Shown here piece after piece: positions 1-59,570 of a stretch of DNA of 64,000 nt. The stretch's first letter is position 1, and every line of letters begins with the position of its first letter. A program made the translations under genes and the position numbers. The notes under the pieces were generated by a model that was not told the origin of the DNA, made no database searches, and saw only the letters and a list, made by a program, of their open reading frames with translations. The DNA comes from Chiridota heheva (taxonomy: Eukaryota; Echinodermata; Holothuroidea; Apodida; Chiridotidae). The stretch is from contig JAIGNY010002759.1 of the NCBI GenBank assembly GCA_020152595.1, positions 196,001 through 260,000 on the forward strand, written 5' to 3'.

Positions 1-350
1 TTGACCTTTGAGGCACATATTTTATTTTGTGCAGGACACAACCTTTCAGTATCCCACCAATTATCAACCTAACATCACTTATGGTTTTCCCAGGAAGCAC
101 AGCACAAATTGTGTATTTTTAATCAATTGTTTGACCTTTAACCTTTAAAGTACACGACTTAACTTGACACAATTATACATTACTCGAAACCCTCCAACCA
201 AGTTCAACTTGATAGCTTGTACGGTTCTCTTTGTACACGCAACACAATATTTTGTACACCCACCCCAAAAGAACTGAGAACAATAAGCCTCCATCTTAAT
301 AGCAATTTGTATCTCGCTCACAAAAGGAACTTTAAGTTCTGGCCTTTAAC
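1..350. other. intron sequence, no gene seen
   Basis: This is unique-looking AT-rich sequence of the intron beyond the minisatellite. I found no continuation of the 5-phosphatase coding sequence (no strand resembling the F-F-V-G-T motif) on the minus strand. Confidence 0.6.
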
Positions 351-2379
351 ATGCATATGGTAAACAGCATCAACATTACCTGAATGGACTAAGCTTCAAC
401 ATGCATATGGTAAACAACATCAACAGCATTTACCTGAATGGACTAAGCTTTAACATGCATATGGTAAACAGCATCAACATTACCTGAATGGACTAAGCTT
501 TAACATGCATATGGTAAACAACATCAACAGCACTTACCTGAATGGACTAAGCTTTAACATGCATATGGTAAACAACATCAACAGCACTTACCTGAATGGA
601 CTAAGCTTTAACATGCATATGGTAAACAGCATCAACAGCACTTACCTGAATGGACTAAGCTTCCACATGCATATGGTAAACAACATCAACAGCACTTACC
701 TGAATGGACTAAGCTTTAACATGCATATGGTAAACAACATCAACAGCACTTACCTGAATGGACTAAGCTTCCACATGCATATGGTAAACAACATCAACAG
801 CACTTACCTGAATGGACTAAGCTTTAACATGCATATGGTAAATAACATCAACAGCACTTACCTGAATGGACTAAGCTTTAACATGCATATGGTAAACAGC
901 ATCAATAGCACTTACCTGAATGGACTAAGCTTTAACATGCATATGGTAAACAGCATCAACAGCACTTACCTGAATGGACTAAGCTTTAACATGCAAATGG
1001 TAAACAACATCAACAGCACTTACCTGAATGGACTAAGCTTTAACATGCATATGGTAAACAACATCATTAGCACTTACCTGAATGGACTAAGCTTTAACAT
1101 GCATATGGTAAACAACATCAACAGCACTTACCTGAATGGACTAAGCTTTAACATGCATATGGTAAACAACATCAACAGCACTTACCTGAATGGACTAAGC
1201 TTTAACATGCATATGGTAAACAGCATCAATAGCACTTGCCTGAATGGACTAAGCTTTAACATGCATATGGTAAACAACATCAATAGCACTTGCCTGAATG
1301 GACTAAGCTTCAACATGCATATGGTAAACAACATCAACAGCATTTACCTGAATGGACTAAGCTTTAACATGCATATGGTAAACAGCATCAACATTACCTG
1401 AATGGACTAAGCTTTAACATGCATATGGTAAACAACATCAACAGCACTTACCTGAATGGACTAAGCTTTAACATGCATATGGTAAACAACATCAACAGCA
1501 CTTACCTGAATGGACTAAGCTTTAACATGCATATGGTAAACAGCATCAACAGCACTTACCTGAATGGACTAAGCTTCCACATGCATATGGTAAACAACAT
1601 CAACAGCACTTACCTGAATGGACTAAGCTTTAACATGCATATGGTAAACAACATCAACAGCACTTACCTGAATGGACTAAGCTTCCACATGCATATGGTA
1701 AACAACATCAACAGCACTTACCTGAATGGACTAAGCTTTAACATGCATATGGTAAATAACATCAACAGCACTTACCTGAATGGACTAAGCTTTAACATGC
1801 ATATGGTAAACAGCATCAATAGCACTTACCTGAATGGACTAAGCTTTAACATGCATATGGTAAACAGCATCAACAGCACTTACCTGAATGGACTAAGCTT
1901 TAACATGCAAATGGTAAACAACATCAACAGCACTTACCTGAATGGACTAAGCTTTAACATGCATATGGTAAACAACATCATTAGCACTTACCTGAATGGA
2001 CTAAGCTTTAACATGCATATGGTAAACAACATCAACAGCACTTACCTGAATGGACTAAGCTTTAACATGCATATGGTAAACAACATCAACAGCACTTACC
2101 TGAATGGACTAAGCTTTAACATGCATATGGTAAACAGCATCAATAGCACTTGCCTGAATGGACTAAGCTTTAACATGCATATGGTAAACAACATCAATAG
2201 CACTTGCCTGAATGGACTAAGCTTTAACATGCATATGGTAAACAACATCAACAGCACTTACCTGAATGGACTAAGCTTTAACATGCATATGGTAAACAAC
2301 ATCAACATTACCTGAATGGACTAAGCTTTAACATGCATATGGTAAACAACATCAACACAATTACCTGAATGGACTAAGG
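351..2379 (-). repeat. 54-bp minisatellite of an exon/5'-splice-site junction, ~38 units
   Basis: About 38 head-to-tail units lie here: 34 or so of 54 bp, some 50-bp variants and a 47-base terminal unit that overlaps exon 2365-2496. Read on the minus strand, each unit is CTTAGTCCATTCAG followed by a GTAAGT-type donor and about 34 bases of intron. The terminal unit contains the true exon end. Most units carry CAGGTAAGTG; four carry CAGGCAAGTG (GC donor); the 50-bp variants carry GTAATG. A 914-bp higher-order block (sixteen 54-bp units plus one 50-bp unit) occurs twice, at 505-1418 and 1419-2332, with the same order of sub-variants. On the plus strand one frame stays open (period MHMVNNINSTYLNGLSFN), but this follows from 54 being divisible by three and is not evidence for a protein. 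Confidence 0.95.
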
Positions 2380-2496
2380 AATGTGTATTCTCCTTCCCTT
2401 CGTTTGAGTACTTCTTCCCTTACTACGGCTGGTGTGAACTGTGGTTTGACCATGGAGTAGTCACCAACTTCAGAGTAGTCTTCAGTCTTCCCCCCG
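2365..2496 (-). CDS. INPP5B: INPP5B/OCRL-like exon h (junction to catalytic domain)
   Basis: This is a 132-base exon encoding GGKTEDYSEVGDYS, then PQFTPAVVREE and VLKRREGEYTFLSPF, ending in two bases of an R codon. Known OCRL/INPP5B proteins read K-R-E-K-E-Y followed by an F-R-F-F-V-G-T strand at this point, so the next exon should begin the 5-phosphatase fold; it lies left of the window. The acceptor is GTGTGCTACAG and the donor CATTCAG|GTAATTG. Oddity: its last 14 bases and its donor are the seed of the 54-bp minisatellite that follows without a gap. A read-through of the donor gives AGG TAA, an immediate stop. Confidence 0.75.
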
Positions 2497-4444
2497 CTGT
2501 AGCACACATGCAATGAAACAGGAAATCACATTCTTGTAAAGGGACAAGATAATATTGAATCACAGGGTGTATAATGAATAATGCAGTCAAATTTGACTCA
2601 TAGCTGTCAAGAAAGTCTGTCATATCCTCAAAATCTTTTCTCTTCAGGGAGATATTAGGCTCTGTGACTTACAAAGGTGTCAATGTGGCCCTAGGTATCT
2701 TGAACACACAGGCCCTTTAACCCATAAATGCTCAACCGGTCGTGCGACGAACGGTTTGGACATGCACTTTTCAAAAATCATTTTGCTTTGTCAATTAGGC
2801 CCAAATCAGTGATCCTGGTATCATTTAAAAGAGCTCGAATAGTAAAAAAATTAATTTTTTGATGGGGTTATGTTAAAGATTTTAGGAAAATAAAATCCAC
2901 AAATTTTAACATTTTTTTTTTTTTTTTTTTTTTTCTCAAAACTTCCTTGCCATACTTCCAGACCTTGCTTTTGTCTGAAAACCTGTTAGAAGTTGGCAAA
3001 GACATCAATGCATCCAATTCTGGTCAAATTTTGGCTGCCCCTAATGTATCAGCAATATCATTTTTAGGCAAAGGTTGTAAAAATTATCATAATTTTTAGC
3101 CTTTATGAGCCCAAAAATGTGGCCAAAATCATAGTTTCTGATCGCGATATACCTCCCTACACAAAATATACCATTAGAAATGATATTTCTACCTATTTTA
3201 AACAAAAACATAAAGAGCAACCCTCTTTATTCATAGCGAAATTGAAGTATCTAAACTAATCCACACACTGACACGTATACATTCTAGTGTAGCATTGAGT
3301 TACAAGACTACAACATAGGCAACCCAGGTTTGAGGGCCACACCAGATGTGCGGTTTTGTTTTTCGCGAGTAATTACAGGGTTGACTATTTTTTTGGTTTA
3401 TTTTCATTGTTTTTGTATGTTTTGCTTTGAGAAAAAAATTTAGACTGGTATCAATGGAAAGGAAATTTCACAAACAATTTAAATATGTAAAAAAAATCAC
3501 CATTTTCATTATTCACAAGAAGAAAAAAAACAAGCTCAAAAAAGCTTTAAAAATTGACCTAATTTTGCATAAAATTTGCATATTTATGTCAATGATTTTG
3601 ACTTTTTCATTTAAAAGTTTATTGTCTTTACATTCAAATAAACCAAACTTGTAGTGATAGAAAACGAAAGCAAAGTTGTGAAAATTAATTTTGAAGGAAA
3701 AAAATCCCAAATATTGCAGTCATGACCTAGGCCCCCAGGGCACCATGCCCAAGGAGTAACGCACCCCCTTAACACCCCTTGTCAGCGGAACTCAGTGGTC
3801 AGTTATGTCAATGACCTATTTACAGTATAAAAAGGACAAAAACACCAATGACCGATGAAAAAATGAATATTTATCTGATTTGAAAGTAACCAAAATGAAA
3901 TGTAATCTAACAGAAAACTCTGAAAGAGGTGAAGTTTAATTCACACTGAGGTTAGGGGATCACGCCAGGGATCCCAACAATCATATCTGGGCATCCGTTA
4001 TTTTTGCTGGGTCTGACAATTGGACAATCAAATTTTTAGCACTGTTTGTATTCAAACATATAAACATTCCAGGGCAACTTGATTTTCGATCTGGGCAACA
4101 ATAAGTGAGTGCAGATGGAGTTTAATATCCATGTTTTCAGGTTAGTTTGTCGAGCCCTGGATCATGCCTTCTTCCAAATCTTTCATATCAATGTCAAAGA
4201 TGCAAATGTAGTTACCAGTACAGCTGTTGTCCCAGTATAATGTTGAATCACAAAGCTTAGCACCAAATTTGATGATCTGTATAACTGCATGATGAATGTT
4301 TTATAAGTTAGGCTACCATGGTAGGATTTCATTCTTTCACTTCCCATTAAAACGAAAATGGAATTTGTAAAAAAAACCCATTAAGTTTCTAAGTTATATA
4401 CTATCGTAATTTAAGGATGTTTTCATGTGTGCAGTTTTTGATGT
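2497..4444. other. intron; diverged TTAACCC-type element near 2718-3760
   Basis: No exon is visible. From about 2718 (TTTAACCCATAAATG) to about 3760 the layout resembles the TTAACCC element family at 20.7, 24.8 and 44.5 kb. Shared points are a start with TTAACCC and an inverted GTCGTGCGACGAACGG-like motif, long T/A runs, and a central ACTGGTATCAATGGAAAGG that parallels ATTGGCATCATTGGAAAGG there. The right terminus is not recognisable, so it is at best an old relative. A 20-base T run lies at about 2912-2934. Confidence 0.3.
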
Positions 4445-4450
4445 ATGAGA

Positions 4451-5569
4451 AGCAAGAGCTATGTACCTCAATTAACATAGTGGCATACATGTCTGCAAGA
4501 GCTATGTACCTCACTTAACATAGTGGCATACATGTCTGCAAGAACTATGTACCTCAGTTAGCATAGTGGCATACATGTCTGCAAGAGCTATGTACCTCAG
4601 TTAGCATAGTGGCATACATGTCTGCAAGAGCTATGTACCTCAGTTAACATAGTGGCATACATGTCTGCAAGAACTATGTACCTCAGTTAGCACAGTGACA
4701 TACATGTCTCCAAGAACTATGTACCTCAGTTAGCATAGTGACATACATGTCTGCAAGAACTATGTACCTCAGTTAGCACAGTGACATATGTGTCTGCAAG
4801 AACTATGTACCTCAGCTAGCAAAGTGACATACATGTCTGCAAGAACTATGTACCTCAGTTAGCATAGTGACATACATGTCTGCAAGAACTATGTACCTCA
4901 GTTAGCATAGTGACATACATGTCTGCAAGAAGTATGTACCTTAGCTAGCTTAGTGACATACATGTCTGCAAGAGCTAAGTACCTCAGTTAGCATAGTGAC
5001 ATACATGTCTCCAAGAACTATGTACCTCAGTTAGCATAGTGACATACATGTCTGCAAGAACTATGTACCTCAGTTAGCATAGTGACATACATGTCTGCAA
5101 GAAGTATGTACCTTAGCTAGCTTAGTGACATACATGTCTGCAAGAGCTAAGTACCTCAGTTAGCATAGTGACATACATGTCTCCAAGAACTATGTACCTC
5201 AGTTAGCATAGTGACATACATGTCTGCAAGAACTATGTACCTCAGTTAGCACAGTGACATACATGTCTGCAAGAACTATGTACCTCAGCTAGCAAAGTGA
5301 CATACATGTCTGCAAGAACTATGTACCTCAGTTAGCATAGTGACATACATGTCTGCAAGAGCTATGGACCTCAGTTAGCATAGTGACATACATGTCTGCA
5401 AGAATTGTGTACCTTAGTTAGCATAGTGGCATACATGTCTGCACAATTATGTACCTCAGTTAGCATAGTGACATACATGTCTGCAAGAGCTATGCACCTC
5501 AGTTAGCATAGTGACATACATGTCTGCAAGAGCTGTGTACCTCAGTTAGCATAGTGACATACATGTCTA
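4451..5569. repeat. 43-bp tandem array, ~26 units
   Basis: The unit is GCAAGAACTATGTACCTCAG followed by TTAGCATAGTGACATACATG and TCT. About 26 copies have modest variants (GAGCTATG/GAACTATG, GTGGC/GTGAC). A four-unit (172-bp) block with the rare variants GTACCTTAGCTAGCTTAG and GAGCTAAGTACC occurs twice (near 4928 and 5100), a sign of recent block duplication. It lies in the intron between exons at 17.5 and 2.4 kb. Confidence 0.93.
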
Positions 5570-7251: not shown

Positions 7252-8573
7252 ATGCAGATCATAGTGATAATAATTGTTTATTCCTTTTATGCGGCAGTGT
7301 TGGCTTCTGAGCACTTAACCTTGAGCTCAGAGACTTCATGTGGGACTGTGTGTTCTTATGATGCAAGGAGTGAAACAGCTGACTGTGGGTGGATATCGCT
7401 AGAACAAGTACCACCCAGTGGGGATGCCAGCCCTGTATCACTTTGAATTTAGATGGAAATGAAATAAGCAATCTTTTAGCCGAGCACCTCTTGGGTTATG
7501 CTGCCATCAGGCAACTCGATTTATCATTTAATGAGTTGCATTCTATTGCACGAAAGACATTTCAGTACACTACAGGAATACAAAAACTTCTTATGACAGG
7601 GAACAGTCTGCAGATATTAGGCAACTATACATTTCCAGAATTACTCCACTTGACTCATCTTTTCCTTGATGACAACAAAATCAAATTTTTGGAGATTCAT
7701 GCTTTCAGCGATCTCACTAAACTTGAAGTTCTGGATATGAGTGACAATGAGATAAGAAACCTGCCTTCCCAAATATTTTCTGGTACACCAGCACTTTGTT
7801 CAATTTCCTTCAAAAGTAATTTTATCCATTCACTTGAGCCAACTCTTCTGCAAGCTGTGCCTCTTCTTCAAAATTTGGACTTGTCAAACAATGAAATACA
7901 AACTATCCCAAAAGGTTTCTTCATAAATCTTGTAAAACTCCAGGTAGTGAAGCTTGCTAATAATTACCTTGTGACTGTTCCGTCATTTACTACGACATCT
8001 CTTGAAATGATGAAAATACTGGACCTCGAAGGAAACGATCTGACAGACATTTCAAGAGTTCATGATTACCTCATTAATATTGAGGTAGTGCTCTTGGGTA
8101 AAAATCCTCTTCACTGCAACTGTGGCATGGAGTCAATTCGTGAATGGTATGGAACCAACGCACCACCTAAAGTGTCTTCATATGTTACATGTTCAACTCC
8201 CATGCAGTATGAAGGCATGTCAATTCTAGCTCTTCCCCCTCTATGTTCTGACGCATCAACTTCAACAATAAAAATACCAGATGATCCTTTGTCACCGGAG
8301 AAAGGACACAATAGTTATTCTGAATTTGCAACTTCTGGACCAGTCTCGAAAAAGGGGAATGATGATGTCACTATTTCAAATACCTTACTCTTAACAATTC
8401 TGATATCAGTTATCTCTACAGTCTGCATACTTCAATTCATAATCATATGTTGCTATTGCTACAGATTTGGGTTTCTGACCCAAAGCAATCCAAAAGATAG
8501 TCATTCATCTACAAAAACCTCACACAATTTTAATCTAAAAGAAACCAACAAAACTCAGCCAGAAGATTTGTAG
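7252..8573 (+). CDS. Leucine-rich-repeat type I transmembrane protein (one frameshift)
   Basis: A nested, single-exon plus-strand gene. The first frame (7252-7446) starts MQIIVIIIVYSFYAAVLA, a signal peptide, followed by a cysteine-bearing LRRNT (CGTVCSYD, ADCGWISLEQVP). The second frame (continuing from about 7437 to 8573) holds about nine LRRs of 22-25 residues (for example LNLDGNEI, LDLSFNEL, LFLDDNKI, LDMSDNEI, LDLSNNEI, LDLEGNDL) and a typical LRRCT (NPLHCNCGMESIREWY, VTCSTPM, LPPLCSD). A spacer, one membrane segment (TLLLTILISVISTVCILQF, then IIICCYCY) and a tail of about 45 residues complete it. The two frames differ by one missing base (or two extra) near 7425-7440, exactly where LRRNT should pass into LRR1. 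Such proteins are usually cell-surface adhesion or recognition receptors; the ligand is unknown. It could be a sequencing indel, an allele or a young pseudogene. Confidence 0.82.
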
Positions 8574-16914: not shown

Positions 16915-17432
16915 TGCCACAAATGGGTCAAACTGACAATCTCAAGGTACCACAGCCAACCCAAATGGGTCAAACTGACAATCTCAAGGTACCACAACCA
17001 ACCCAAATGGGTCAAACTGACAATCTCAAGGTACCACAACCAACCCAAATGGGTCAAACTGACAATCTCAAGGTACCACAGTTGCCCCAAATGGGTCAAA
17101 CTGACAATTCAAGGTACCACAACCAACCCAAATGGGTCAAACTGACAATCTCAAGGCACCACACTTGCCACTTGCCCCAAATGGGTCAAACTGACAATCT
17201 CAAGGTACCACAACCAACCCAAATGGGTCAACCTGACAATCTCAAGGTACCACACTTGCCACTTGCCCCAAATGGGTCAAACTGACAATCTCAAGGTACC
17301 ACAACCAACCCAAATGGGTCAAACTGACAATCTCAAGGTACCACAGTTGCCCCAAATGGGTCAAACTGACAATCTCAAGGTACCACACTTGCCCCAAATG
17401 GGTCAAAGTGACAATCTCAAGGTACCACAAGC
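16915..17432. repeat. 42-bp tandem array, ~12 units
   Basis: The unit is CCAAATGGGTCAAACTGACA, then ATCTCAAGGTACCACAACCA and AC. Variants carry CACTTGCCACTTGCC inserts. It starts about 60 bases downstream of the donor of exon 17489-17645 on the minus strand. Three frames stay open across it because the unit is a multiple of three; these are not genes. Confidence 0.93.
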
Positions 17433-17488
17433 AAGTAAATGAGAATGGTCCTCTACCATGACAGCCCTCTTTTTTATACAGTACATAC

Positions 17489-17645
17489 CTATCAACATCA
17501 TCATTGTCCACATAAAAAGTACTGTTACTGTCCGCATGATGGTTCCGCCTTGCATTTCGCCTCTCTGGTACCCTTGGCTGTTGGAGACTCAACTCTGAGA
17601 AGTCATCTTCAAATGTTAGATCGTTGTCGTTTCTGTCATTGTCCT
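17489..17645 (-). CDS. INPP5B: INPP5B/OCRL-like exon g (acidic linker motif)
   Basis: This is a 157-base exon encoding an acidic/Asn stretch, then LTFEDDFSELSL, then RVPERRNARRNHH and NSTFYVDNDDVD. The FEDDFSELSL piece closely resembles the linker motif of OCRL (FED-N-F-S-S-M-N-L), which is one of the best identity clues for this gene. The acceptor is TTTCTGCAG and the donor AG|GTATGTA. It exits with two bases, and the C that opens the next exon completes a serine codon. The 42-bp tandem array at 16.9-17.4 kb begins about 60 bases into the following intron. Confidence 0.72.
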
Positions 17646-18599: not shown

Positions 18600-19370
18600 G
18601 TTGGAGTCAGGTAGCTCAGTTGTTAGAGCAGCACGACTGGAGGACACCAGGTTGTAGGAGTCAGGTAGCTCAGTTGGTAGAGCGCACGACTGGAGGACAC
18701 CAGGTTGTAGGAGTCAGGTAGCTCAGTTGGTAGAGCAGCACGACTGGAGGACATCAGGTTAGAGGAGTCAGGTAGCTCAGTTGGTAGAGCGCACGACTGG
18801 AGGACATCAGGTTGTAGGAGTCAGGTAGCTTGGTTGGTAGAGCAGCACGACTGACGGACATTAGGTTGTAGGAGTCAGGTAGCTCAGTTGGTAGAGCGCA
18901 CAACTGGAGGACATCAGGTTGGAGGAGTCAGGTAGCTCAGTTGGTAGAGCAGCACGACTAGAGGACATCAGGTTGGAGGAGTCAGCTAGTTCAGTTGGTA
19001 GAGCGCACGACTAGAGGTACCCGCTTCAAGCCCTCAAACAAAGCCTCAGACAAGATCTAATCAGTTTTTCCACAGCTATGCAGACGGATACGCCGATCAT
19101 CAAAGCGGAACTACGTTGTTTCCAGCTCTTGCTCCTCATTCAGCTGTTGGCAGATGTGGCAATGGTTGAATGGCATTTGCCGTCCTTCGGAGGGTACGTT
19201 AAGCTGTCGGTCCCAAAAGTAGGAGTCACACCCACCAGGTTCTCTGCCCACTCCTTGAAAAAAATAGGGTGAGAACCCGGTTTTTATCCACTTCCGTCCC
19301 GGTCGCACACAACTGGCAACTGCTATGCAGGCTATAGTGTGGCGTCTATGCTCCGTATAGCATTCTCGCC
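18600..19370 (+). mobile_element. tRNA-derived SINE with tandemly multiplied head
   Basis: About eight units of 53-55 bp (18600-19010) each contain GTAGCTCAGTTGGTAGAGC, an excellent tRNA D-arm/A-box sequence. Each then reads CACGACTGGAGGACATCAGG. Only the last unit runs on to a B-box-like CGCTTCAAGCCCT and a long unique body (TTTTTCCACAGCTATGCAGA, GTCCTTCGGAGGGTACG, GGTGAGAACCCGG). The same body is found in the single-headed copy at 19925-20285. The units are too short and lack an acceptor half, so they are not functional tRNA genes. Confidence 0.8.
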
Positions 19371-28319: not shown

Positions 28320-29440
28320 TATTAGGAGCCTTATGGAATTAAAGTGATGACTAATGTTCCCAAAAAGATAGGAGAATTTCAGTTTACGGAATCAAAGTGA
28401 TGGCTAATGTTCCAAAAAGACAAAGAGATTTTCAGTTTACGGAATTAAAGTGATGACTAATGTTCCCAGAAAGACAAGAGAATTTCAGTTTACGGAATTA
28501 AAGTGATGGCTAATGTTCCCAAAGGGACAAAGAGATTTTCAGTTTACGGAATTGAAGTGATGACTAATGTTCTTAGAAAGACAAGAGAATTTCAATTTAC
28601 GGAATTAAAGTAATGACTAATGTTCCCAAAAAGACAAGAGAATTTCAATTTACGGAATTAAAGTGATGACTAATGTTCCTAAAAAGACAAAGAGACTTTC
28701 AGTTTACAGAATTAAAGTGATGACTAATGTTCCCACAAAGACAAGAGATTTTCAGTTTACGGAATTAAAGTAATGACTAATGTTCCCAAAAAGACAAGAG
28801 AATTTCAGTTTATGGAATTAAAGTGATGACTAATGTTCCTAAAAAGACAAAGAGATTTTCAGTTTACAGAATTAAAGTGATAACTAATGTTCCCAGAAAG
28901 ACAAAAGATTTTCAGTTTATGGAATTAAAGTGATGACTAATGTTCCCAAAAAGACAAGAGATTTTTAGTTTACGAAATTAAAGTGATGTTTCCAAAAAGA
29001 CAAGAGATTTTCAGTTTACGGAATTAAAGTGATGACTAATGTTCCTAAAAAGACTAAAGATTTTCAGTTTATGAAATTAAAGTGATGACTAATGTTCCCC
29101 AAAAGGCAAGAGACTTTCAGTTTACAGAATTAAAGTGATGACTAATGTTCCCACAAAGACAAGAGATTTTAGTTTACGGAATTAAAGTGATGACTAATGT
29201 TCCCAAAAAGACAAAAGACTTTCAGTTTACAGAATTAAAGTGATGACTAATGTTCCCACAAAGACAAGAGATTTTCAGTTTACGGAATTAAAGTAATGAC
29301 TAATGTTCCCACAAAGACAAGAGATTTTCACTTTACGGAAGTAAAGTGATGACTAATGTTCCCACAAAGACAAGAGATTTTCAGTTTACGAAATTAAAGT
29401 GATGACTTATGTTCCCAGAAAGACAAGAGATTTTCAGTTT
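28320..29440. repeat. ~52-bp tandem array, ~21 units
   Basis: The unit is TTTCAGTTTACGGAATTAAA, then GTGATGACTAATGTTCCCAA and AAAGACAAGAGA. Single-base length changes (ACAAGAG versus ACAAAGAG) prevent a continuous frame. One unit near 28985 is shortened (GTGATGTTTCC). Confidence 0.93.
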
Positions 29441-50142: not shown

Positions 50143-51195
50143 TGTTTGTTTGTTTGTTTGATGAGGGCTTAACGGCATTACGACAACGAGGGTCAAATAG
50201 TGCCTGAGAGGTCAGATCATTCTAGAGGTAGGAAGGAAAGGAAACAGGGGGAGAATGAGAGAAATTCAAGAACAAAAAGTCAGAAAGCTGTGATCGAGAG
50301 AGGAGGTGCATGGGTGAAACAAAAACAAAGTAGAGAGGGGGTGGAAGAGGAGAATTGAATATGGTTGTAGAGGGAAGCATGATGAAGAAAGGAGATAATT
50401 TTATCCGGAGGATTTTTCTGGAAGAAGTCAGCAATTGAGTTGTGGGGAGCGAGGGAAGCTCTGGGAAGGTTGTACAGGGGGCAAGCAAGAAGAACGTGAT
50501 GGATTGTGAGGGTGCAGTGGCAATTGTTGCAGAGGGGTTGGGGGGAGCCAATAAGGAGGTGGGAGTGAGTGAGGTGGGTGTGACCAATTCTAAGACAGGT
50601 AATATGAACGTTGTCGATACGAGAGAGGTGGTTGATGGTGATTTTGATCAAAATTGTGGGCTGGATGACATGGAGTTTGTTATTAATTTGGGAGTTCCAT
50701 GAGGTTTGCCAGCGATCACGAAGAAGGGAAGCAATAAGCAGTTTGATGTCAGAGAGGCTTTTGGGAAAAGGGGTAGGGAGGAGGTTGAGGGCAAGCTTAG
50801 CGGCTGCATCAGCCCTGTCATTGCCAGGGATGCTAACATGGCTGGGTATCCAGAGGGTGGGAGAAAGGAATTTCCAGAGGAGGTGGCATGTGAGGGTATC
50901 CCATTTAAGATCGAGTAAAGAAGTAAGAACAGCCTTTGAGTCAGAGAAAATAGCAGAGTGGCTGAGTGGAGAGTACTCAATAAAGTTGAGGGCGAGGAGA
51001 ATGGCCTTAGCCTCAGCTGAAAAGATGGATGAGTAGTCAGGAAGTCTGCTACTGGGGGTGATGTCTTGGATGACAGCAGCAGCAGCTGTCTTGTTGCTTT
51101 CCCTGGAGCCATTAGTATAGATAGAGGTGTTATTTAAGAGTTGGTCTTTGATTTAATTGTGGAGATTGATAAAGAGGTCAGGGTGGGTTTGAGTT
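50143..51195 (-). mobile_element. RNase H-bearing non-LTR retrotransposon, 5'-truncated copy 2
   Basis: Homologous to 13589-14823. On the minus strand, spread over frames, it encodes SAEAKAILLALNFIEYS, SAIFSDSKAVLTSLL, SIPGNDRADAAAKLAL, the Cys pair segment CNNCHCTLTIHHVLLACPLY and NLPRASLAPHNS. This is the better preserved RNase H of the two copies (IPGNDRADAAAK is close to the family norm), but frame changes near 50640 and 50900 show it is inactive. The 5' edge near 51195 runs into another repeat. Confidence 0.85.
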
Positions 51196-56337: not shown

Positions 56338-59300
56338 TTTAATTCAATTTCAATTTATTGCTTCCAGGACAAATGTACATTTGTAAAAAGAATTTACATT
56401 TAATAACATACATATAATAAAGAAAAGAAAATTACATAAAACATATAGTTATGATATAAATGATAAATCTATAGATACAAATTTTAAAATATAATATATA
56501 TATATATATAAGACATAACCTGGTAAAATGAGTTAAAGGATTAAAAAAGAATTAAAGAAGTGACCTTAGCTGTCCATTTTGTATATATAGAGCCGCCTGG
56601 TAGATAAAAGAATGTTTGTACAGTTGTATTCTGAATTTTGGCACTATGTTTGGATTGCAAACATTTCTATTGGTTTTGGCAAGAAGGCTTTGTAAAACAT
56701 TATATAATGGATGACTTTCAGTTGAATTTATTTTTCTTGCTATTGCACTAAAATCTGATTTGGCTCTGTCGTTGAGAATACAAATAAGGTTAAAATAGTC
56801 CAAGGTAAAAATCTTTGACGTATATCTTAAAATTTTCTTAATTCTGTCTTTGTCTTTTTCTAGTAAGAGATGATACCAAACTGGTACGGCATAAAGGAGC
56901 TGGGATATAATTACGGATTTAAAAAGATTCATTCTAGCATTAGAATTACAAAAAGATAGAATATACGATAACCTTGACACAATATAGTAAACTTTACTTA
57001 GCATTTTTGATATGTGTGGGGTAAAAGACAGTTTGTCATCTATACAAATACCAAGGAAATCAATTTTTGTACAATTGGCAACCTCAAGATCTGTTTATAA
57101 TTATGCTTTCAGAATTACACTGTGGAAGGCCTGTGTGTTTTACGTTTTTGTTTACAAAACACATTTCCTTTGACTTCTTTGGGTTCAGCAACAAGTTTTT
57201 ATCATCACATTTGGATACGACATCATTGACAAAGGTTTGATACTCCATTTAGTCCCAAATTACAAATTTTTTGGCAATTTTGCATGAAATGGCAGTATCA
57301 TCAGCATACTTAGTCACACAAATGTTCTCTCCCAACCGTATTTCATCTGTGTACAGTATATAGTGAAAAGTATTGCAGAGAGAGGGCCTCCCTGAGGTAC
57401 ACCCACATCTATTTTAGATTTTTCTGATAATCCTTTGTCTAATCGTATTTGTCCGGTCCACCCTTCAAGAAATTGGGCTATAAGATGGATAAGCCACGGA
57501 TCTTTTACAAATTTACTTAAGTCCTTGAGTAGATAGTTTGGCAACACCGTGTTAAACACACTTGAGAAATCAAGGAAAAGAACCTTTGATATAGTGGTTT
57601 CCTTGCAATTCAAATGAGTAACAATATTGTAACCAGAACCAGTATAGCATCTCCACATGAAACGCCCTTTTTATAGGCAAACTGATACGCATCACCTACT
57701 TCTTCAACTCACTCCATCAAATAGGGCAACATAATTTTCTGAAGGCTGTTAAAAGCTATACTTGCTAAATCTATCGGCCTATAATCATTTGCAGTTTGAG
57801 GTGTCTTAATTTTGGGAACAGGGGCTGTTATGGCATTTTTCCACAGCAATGGTATTTGACTCTTGGAAATAGTTTCCTCAAAAATGTATGTGTATAAAGG
57901 GGCTAATTCGTCACTTAGAAACTTAAAGACCCACCAAGGAAATTTATCAGATCCGCAGGCAACACCCTTTTTAACCTTTTTTAACTGATTACATACAGAT
58001 TCTACATTTAACTCAGTAATGCATGCATCTCCTGTGTATTCTGGCAAGGAAAAGTCAATGTCTTTGTTACGGGATTGATTAAAACGACCAAAATGTGTGT
58101 TCAGTTCATCCCCAAGAATTTCATCAATACAAACTTTATTGTTTTCATCTGGGTTTCTAACAGATTTAATCAAGCTTCAAAAAGAATTTAAATTAGCCTT
58201 CATGTGACCAAAGGTTTCACTCCTCACACCTTGTACGCATTTATTTATTGTCCTCTGAATTTTGTTTCTCAAGCCTTTATTCCCTTTCTCTATTGCCTTT
58301 TGTTTGTCTTTTTCTAGTTGGGTAATTCTGCTATCCAGTGGAATGCGTTTTGTCATTATCACGGGTGCTGACTTTTTGAGTGGTACACACTGTTTACTAA
58401 CAAACTCGATGTAGCATGAAGTAATTTCTGTAAACTCATCAAGACTGTCCGATGATTCTTTGAACATATTCCAGTCAGTGGTCTTAAGACATTCCTGCAT
58501 TTTCATTATATTTTGGTCTGTTAAATCTTTTTCCGTTTTCCTTTTTCTAGGTTCAAATTTACGGTGCTTTTTGTTGTATTTTGGCATTAGTTTTATATGT
58601 TATGATCAGACATGGAGATGGGGGCTGTCTTCCTTGTTACGTAATAATCACCTTTGACATATACAGCATCCAGAGTTGAATTCGCATTGGGATAGGTGAC
58701 AAAATCTACCTTATTTTTGAAGAAGATTGTTTCAAGGAATCTGATTCTTTGCCTGTTTATGTCACCAACAATAATGAAATAGGTCCTAGGTTTTTCTCTT
58801 TGTAGATTAGTAAGAACCGCTTTCAATTCATTATCAGCTGTTGTAAAGTTTGATGATGGGTCTGGTGTACACATTTACAATAGTAATATTTGATGTGTCA
58901 CTTGGTAGATAACGAGGGCGGGCCTGGATTGCGGGCAATTCAATATCTTTTGTTGACACTGATAGACATACTTCAGGGGTACATATTGTCCATTTCTTTG
59001 AAATATAACTAATCAGTCCTTCCCCATTTGCTAAAAATTGCCTGTCATGACGAAACATGTAATAATCATCGATAAGAAGCGCATTATCTGCTACTCTGTG
59101 TTGTGGCATTTCATTCTGGAAAAGTTTGTCCAAATTTTGAAGTTTTGTTTCTTGTAGAGCTATAAATGATAGATTACGCAAGTTAGCAATTCTTTGTTCT
59201 AAATGCATACATTTTCCTTGGAGGCTATTTACATTTGCTGTCAAACCATATGGAAAGCTGAAATTAGACGGATGTGTATGTCTAGTGCGTTGTTGTAATC

Positions 59301-59570
59301 CAGCTCTCGAGCCTCTATGATGTCGAGCAATTGATAAGTCTTTTAATTTGTTCATCAACCGTGAATCTATTGTGAAAACCTGCCTCATCCGAATATTGTA
59401 TAAAGATTGTGAGCTATAGTGTAGACATAGTGTAGACATGGTGACTTCAAAAAGCGTGGTAGGATGGGTAGTTGCTAAGGACGCTAAGTTCACTACCAAA
59501 AGTAAATGAAAAATATAACAAACCAGGTTTTTTAGTTCACTCACAAGCACCATATTTCAAGTTAGTAATC
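56338..59570 (-). mobile_element. CR1/Rex1-like non-LTR retrotransposon, decayed
   Basis: In order on the minus strand: an AP-type endonuclease from about 59300 (LTANVNSLQGK, FIALQETKL, then YFIIVGDINRQ and a terminal SMSDHN), a connecting Lys-rich segment (58587-58180), and the reverse transcriptase with YRPIDLASIAF, LFLDFSSVFNT, VGVPQGGPLSAILF and YADDTAISC (57290-57800). A thumb/C-terminal region (56552-57004) follows. The 3' end has GCAATAAATTGAAATTGAAT (56338-56358), a typical short-repeat tail of this clade. Breaks: a frameshift at 58865 inside the endonuclease, another frame change or stop after SDHN near 58590, an in-frame TGA at 58177, and more around 57700, 57300 and 57010. The catalytic YADD is present, but the copy cannot make a full protein. 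It may lie in the gene's first intron; it is in sense with that gene. Confidence 0.88.

Follow-up and report, generated by a model that had tools for sequence, protein, structure and literature searches.

The 'mirage' minisatellites of amphioxus, which are characterised by a tandem repeat across an exon-intron boundary and by an AG/GT splice signal in the units, have been described for Adh3, BflGb6, BflGb9, troponin C and PGBD5; in the available portions of these reports, the splicing of the genes concerned is said to be undisturbed (PMC3087553, PMC3902484). In humans, the downstream units of the IFI6 (6-16) minisatellite were reported to be used as donors and to encode isoforms (Turri 1995, as related in an accessible part of PMC4526556), and repeats at exon-intron boundaries have been linked to possible intron formation in what is available of another paper (PMC2812944). 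An intronic minisatellite of C. elegans is, according to an excerpt of its report, enriched near multiple alternative splicing (PMC4039745). The subject here is a 54-bp minisatellite at an exon-intron junction of an OCRL/INPP5B-like gene in the holothurian Chiridota heheva. It lies in the window, that is, the whole stretch of 64,000 bp that was analysed (C2714:196001-260000, in an assembly of 1.10 Gb and 3,744 contigs); the flanking DNA was also examined.

As far as the consulted text of the amphioxus papers describes them, mirages have the same anatomy as this array, which may also share with them the like units inside and the odd unit beside the exon. The array contains the last 14 nt of the exon, and the splice signal is present in 38/38 units (CAG is followed by GT in 34 of them and by GC in the other 4). 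However, the host here is an echinoderm, there are 38 copies, compared with 3 and 6 given for BflGb6 in those portions, and most of the distal donors are stronger than the true one. Like the IFI6 minisatellite, this one offers several 5' splice sites, but the downstream donors described for IFI6 in the part available encode isoforms, whereas here all 37 lead to a stop. With intron gain or change by tandem duplication across splice sites, as presented in the accessible sections of two papers (PMC3087553, PMC2812944) and apparently the subject of a third (PMC4974935), the array shares tandem copies of an AG/GT boundary; here, however, no new intron or exon is seen, and the protein reading over the junction is conserved. 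No junction minisatellite of an echinoderm was found in the literature searched, which was covered in part and included few subscription journals. The array most likely represents a known class, the mirage, in a phylum for which no earlier description was found. It is probable that mRNA (messenger RNA) is made from the first junction of this mirage-type minisatellite and that the downstream donors are mostly ignored.

The host gene and its junction array

The predicted coding exon at 2365..2496 (minus strand; 132 nt, phase 2 at both ends) lies just upstream of the 5-phosphatase domain. The next exon (C2714:195194-195410, minus strand, outside the window), whose acceptor is strong, matches it in phase 2, and the peptide of the two joined exons matches OCRL (4cmn_A) with an E-value of 7.9e-32, without a gap from query residue 28 across the splice at residue 44. 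It also matches INPP5B (3mtc_A, E 3.7e-26) and the Pfam family PF22669 (Exo_endo_phos2, 5.6e-10). At the level of homology between joined exons, this confirms the predicted exon, and the gene is, judging by its putative product, an OCRL/INPP5B-like inositol polyphosphate 5-phosphatase. Further exons on the same strand, recognised by eye, carry 5-phosphatase and downstream sequence. Taken singly, the exon peptide has zero matches in Pfam and zero in the PDB, and the exon is matched once in a search of the genome. Its amino-acid composition is protein-like (a score as high is reached by 14 of 6,048 null windows), its codon-usage score is equalled by 17% of null windows, and it ranks 17th in the list of ab initio candidates.

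The bit scores given here for donors and acceptors come from a rough matrix. On this scale, the 3' splice site of the exon (AG at 2497..2498, minus strand; TGTGTGCTACAG/C) is weak, at 5.1 bits. A probable preceding exon, placed independently of homology (17489..17645, minus strand; acceptor 10.0 bits), is open in one frame when joined to the exon at 2496, and other exons may intervene. The true 5' splice site, CAG/GTAATT, is at 2359..2364 on the minus strand; the intron that follows is 2,954 nt long, and the array makes up 68% of it.

The array itself (344..2378, minus strand) was delimited by Tandem Repeats Finder (TRF) with a period of 54, 38.0 copies and a 95% match. A script scan of the array found the 13-mer TTAGTCCATTCAG exactly in 38/38 units on the minus strand; with a leading C, it corresponds to the final 14 bases of the exon, and a typical 54-bp unit consists of these 14 nt followed by 40 nt that start with the donor. 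The end of the exon adjoins the array with zero gap, the true junction being that of unit 1. The 37 spacings between units measure 54 bp in 33 cases, 50 bp in three and 53 bp in one. Among the 38 units, the donor hexamer is GTAAGT in 27, GTAATG in four, GCAAGT in four and GTAAAT in two, and GTAATT occurs once, at the true junction. The exon bases that recur in the units code for the final part of a linker, which can be aligned with OCRL and INPP5B; this argues that the array was copied from the exon and not the reverse. When three units served as the query in a search of the genome, which was not exhaustive for repeats, at least 16 matches were obtained, none of them away from the locus of the array. 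Two long open frames of 315 aa on the plus strand cross the array because the 54-bp unit is free of stops in one frame, and they were not read as coding.

The donors differ in their coding outcome. With any of the 37 downstream donors, a stop would come directly after the codon that spans the junction, ahead of the catalytic domain, and donor 1 alone gives an OCRL/INPP5B-type protein reading. Since every other donor leads to a stop, a working gene implies the use of donor 1, which is further supported by the gapless homology across the splice and by the phase-2 match with the next exon. On these grounds, the donor at 2364 is the predicted productive donor. The original prediction, made from the letters of the window, thus holds in much of its structural part: the coding exon is borne out by homology across the splice, the gapless origin of the array from the junction by TRF and the list of units, the donor counts (including the four GCAAGT) by the script, and the stop after any downstream donor by 37 cases in 37.

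There are 13 unit types among the 38 units. For BflGb6, homogenised interior units and diverged edge units are described; here, units 1 and 2 each have a type of their own, but unit 38, at the far edge, is of the same type as units 19 and 36. A block of 17 units is repeated without a mismatch: copy A (units 4-20, 914 bp) occupies 1308..2221 and copy B (units 21-37, 914 bp) occupies 394..1307, both on the minus strand. Taken one step apart, the blocks show 3 mismatches in a 964-bp frame and 0 in 914 bp. Because units 4-20 are the same as units 21-37, the array amounts to around 21 independent units plus either a recent block duplication or a doubling by the assembly. The figure of about 37 extra sites in the original prediction therefore agrees with the 38 copies counted but not with the number of independent extra copies, which is about 20.

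One explanation for this perfect repeat is that the copy number is partly an artefact of assembly, with two alleles, or reads that overlap, placed one after the other. The absence of any mismatch in 914 bp, with just 3 in the 964-bp frame, favours this explanation, given that the units otherwise differ. However, it is general knowledge that block duplications of recent date are common in minisatellites, and an artefact is on balance unlikely, although its chance is appreciable. The perfect 914-bp duplication would then be the trace left by an unequal exchange and an indirect sign of the instability in length that is attributed to mirages.

Minisatellites elsewhere in the gene and in the genome

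The gene is rich in minisatellites. Between its outermost placed exons, 8 arrays occupy 15.2 of 50.8 kb (30%); this tally takes in 12 exons and the 8 arrays with a TRF score of at least 150, and it omits an array at C2714:147327-147666, which is outside this stretch. The omitted array comprises three 116-bp copies that begin 7 bases inside the intron following the last placed exon candidate (147674-147826), and it does not span the exon edge. In the window, three arrays inspected by eye (4452-5568, 16920-17434 and 28331-29440) have no convincing exon edge inside them. The 42-bp array at 16920-17434 starts 54 bases past the donor of the probable exon 17489-17645, without spanning it, and the 43-bp array at 4452-5568 has a minus-strand unit with TGCTAAC, the donor-like GAGGTACAT and the acceptor-like TTCTTGCAG. 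Further along the contig, in C2714:179393-182872, arrays with 37- and 25-bp units lie on either side of a phosphatase exon (181013-181122), at distances of 54 and 83 bp, and the 25-bp array fills the greater part of a gap of 1,951 nt between exons.

A pattern of three consensus donors, separated by 16-46 bp, has 875 matches in the genome as against 4,624 for the reversed pattern, which was the one control motif; compared with that motif, donor-bearing arrays are not enriched and form no special class in the genome. Twelve contigs, among at least 18 listed, were sampled for this donor pattern: two had no array edge, nine had no array ending a good candidate exon, and one, C868, did. Among these nine, three weaker candidates for exon-ending arrays (L057, L058 and L063) were discounted. 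The first of them, at C699:1471400-1472600, has 36-bp units beginning TTTTCCCAACAG/GTAAGT, in which an acceptor-like stretch abuts the donor in the manner of a recursive site.

The array in C868 (542707-543557) is a second one of the same design, with 15.8 copies of a 54-bp unit, 16 donors and 30 nt of candidate exon in each unit. The true donor is GTATGT, the next is GTTAGT, and the following 14 are GTAAGT; that strong copies were found there follows from the search pattern. The peptide of the exon (EWYMSVV...ILMMK) has no significant match in the PDB (best E 1.9) and none in Pfam, and the exon is a candidate only.

A sample chosen by protein family alone covered 70 exon loci. The best 30 among 48 CCT matches make up one part of it; the other 40 loci come from the best 41 among 120 kinesin matches, one of which was skipped for its ten internal stops. 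The ends of exons were judged by eye. Only one of the 70 has a junction-spanning array, which is short and weak: at C1495:554799-555051 (near 555002), 2.9 copies of an 18-bp unit with an 82% match and a TRF score of 70 adjoin a kinesin exon, where the 5' splice site CTCAC/GTAAGT is followed by decayed copies. At L069 and L078, arrays come within a few bases of the exon without, by eye, spanning the junction, and at L094 an array is close, again without a span. Junction-spanning arrays thus seem to be uncommon but recurrent in this genome, 1/70 being too small a count for a rate.

Choice among 38 donors

The duplex predicted with U1 has an energy of -13.2 kcal/mol in the case of the GTAAGT copies; with the true donor it is weaker, at -8.1, and the remaining types lie at -8.3 to -8.5. 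In bits, the true donor scores 7.8 and the GTAAGT copies 12.7. The description of the proximal donor as weak is apt when it is set beside these copies, but 7.8 bits is higher than the score of 7 of the 9 other placed donors of the gene.

The probable mirage-type origin could be pictured as follows. A 54-bp stretch over the end of the exon and the start of the intron would have been duplicated in tandem; the array would then have grown via unequal exchange, with a single, recent doubling of a block of 17 units, until it filled two thirds of the intron in this OCRL/INPP5B-like gene. By exon definition, the spliceosome would pair the acceptor of this exon with donor 1, and the 37 downstream donors would remain intronic and be mostly ignored. 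The anatomy, the exon, the gene, the one productive donor and the identical blocks of the assembly are shown directly; growth by unequal exchange, the use of donor 1 in the cell and the neutrality of the copies are what we infer from the sequence. The array would most likely be a neutral by-product, with splicing only at its first copy, a view based on the conserved reading from donor 1 only, the absence of a donor preference among arrays and the amphioxus precedents. The abundance of minisatellites around it and the further arrays in C868 and C1495 also favour this view.

Several observations weigh against this neutral reading. The predicted pairing with U1 is far better for 27 of the 37 copies, so a simple rule of strength predicts downstream use. 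The location at a junction is somewhat unlikely by chance: random seeds span a known junction 0.13 times per stretch, with one or more in 12% of trials, although both values are lower bounds since some exons are missing from the placed set, and the 12% is further qualified by the fact that the array was picked for study because of its location. In the 33 units of full length, variation is confined to the intronic part, where it affects 9 of 40 columns, as against 0 of the 14 exonic ones (hypergeometric P 0.051), which could hint at constraint but is not firm evidence of selection. Finally, GT or GC is kept at all 38 donors, with no decay in the distal copies; homogenisation accounts equally well for this.

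Another possibility is that the array supplies poison donors: a regulated share of the transcripts would use downstream donors, meet the immediate stop and be degraded, which would tune the level of the phosphatase, with the length of the array setting the strength of the effect. The stop right after the junction codon with all 37 downstream donors fits this idea, as do the perfect consensus of 27 of the 38 donors, their far better predicted pairing with U1 and the use of repeat units as donors reported for human IFI6 in the accessible part of its account (PMC4526556). However, compared with the one control motif, the genome has no excess of donor arrays, this array resembles ordinary minisatellite turnover, and the amphioxus cases are said, in the portions available, to splice correctly (PMC3087553, PMC3902484). 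Such regulation is distinctly unlikely. The original prediction left the gene only two choices, to enforce the proximal site or to regulate truncation. This view is not supported, given the abundance of minisatellites in the gene, the lack of donor enrichment over the control motif, the recurrence of the anatomy and the amphioxus precedents.

A bolder idea, and an improbable one, is that the array erases itself. A transcript spliced from a downstream donor would undergo a second splice, between donor 1 and the AG of that unit, which would restore the exact mRNA; since each unit ends in the same exon bases, with AG/GT in one register, this outcome would follow whichever unit supplies the AG. 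A recursive, or ratchet, splice site is a pyrimidine-rich 3' splice site that directly abuts a 5' splice site. Most units of the array read CATTCAG/GTAAGT, with the AG directly abutting the donor, but they have no clear polypyrimidine tract. The acceptor within the array (CTTAGTCCATTCAG/G) scores 7.8 bits, in the middle of the 4.5-12.0 range of ten acceptors of the gene. If true, this idea would make the array a string of ratchet points at which errors correct themselves, and it would explain why strong decoys are tolerated.

A further proposal is that the array masks itself, the UUUACC of each unit pairing with GGUAAG so that the copied donors are hidden and the true donor is the most open. 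With two folding windows, the true donor is indeed the most accessible of the 38 (in one, 0.079 versus a median of 0.0065), and with a third it is fourth. Yet an equal degree of closure is seen in 5.2% of 500 shuffles of the unit and at 21% of 24 other GGUAAG sites, and the gain in accessibility is far below the predicted 5 kcal/mol advantage of the GTAAGT copies with U1. Moreover, the true donor in C868 ranks near the bottom in accessibility, at 12-14 of 16. This second array shows the opposite pattern, and masking, which we regard as very improbable for the array in the window, was dropped as a general explanation.

Least credible, with a very small chance, is the suggestion in the original prediction that the array acts as a U1 sponge, protecting a long intron from premature polyadenylation (telescripting): 38 donors within 2 kb could load U1, and two hexamers like poly(A) signals do occur just past the array (intron positions 2242 and 2339), but two in about 930 AT-rich bases is, by estimate, roughly the chance expectation, the intron, far from long and two thirds array, is shorter than 7 of the 8 other placed gaps between exons (some of which hold further exons), and set against the one control motif, tandem donors show no enrichment in the genome.

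Neighbouring features and wider meaning

Other features of the window lie apart from the junction. On the plus strand at 7383-8570, opposite to the gene and between the exon at 2365-2496 and the probable preceding exon, a leucine-rich-repeat open frame (Pfam LRR_8, 3.8e-31) is accompanied by a hydrophobic stretch. The minisatellite at 18603-19017 has a unit that by eye resembles the 5' half of a transfer RNA (GGTAGCTCAGTTGGTAGAGC), a resemblance that neither ARAGORN nor Rfam reported as a transfer RNA; both had zero matches in the 64-kb window. The minus-strand open frames at 56555-59556 and 50283-51152 look by eye like the remains of retrotransposons, with a weak RVT_3 match in the second only. 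Elsewhere on the contig (C2714:279761-288686), minus-strand exon candidates suggest by eye a voltage-gated or two-pore channel. In the assembly as a whole, bindin, an echinoderm sperm protein, was found (PF02084, E 7.2e-34), a marker that speaks against an amphioxus origin of the window; COX1 was not found, and a mollusc haemocyanin query, run without a positive control, had no match.

The mirage-type reading would extend splice-junction minisatellites beyond the cephalochordates, where they were described under that name. The locus also offers a natural test of how one donor is chosen among 38 that are near-identical, 27 of which are stronger on paper. Finally, the recurrence of such arrays in a minisatellite-rich genome suggests that they may be raw material for intron change.
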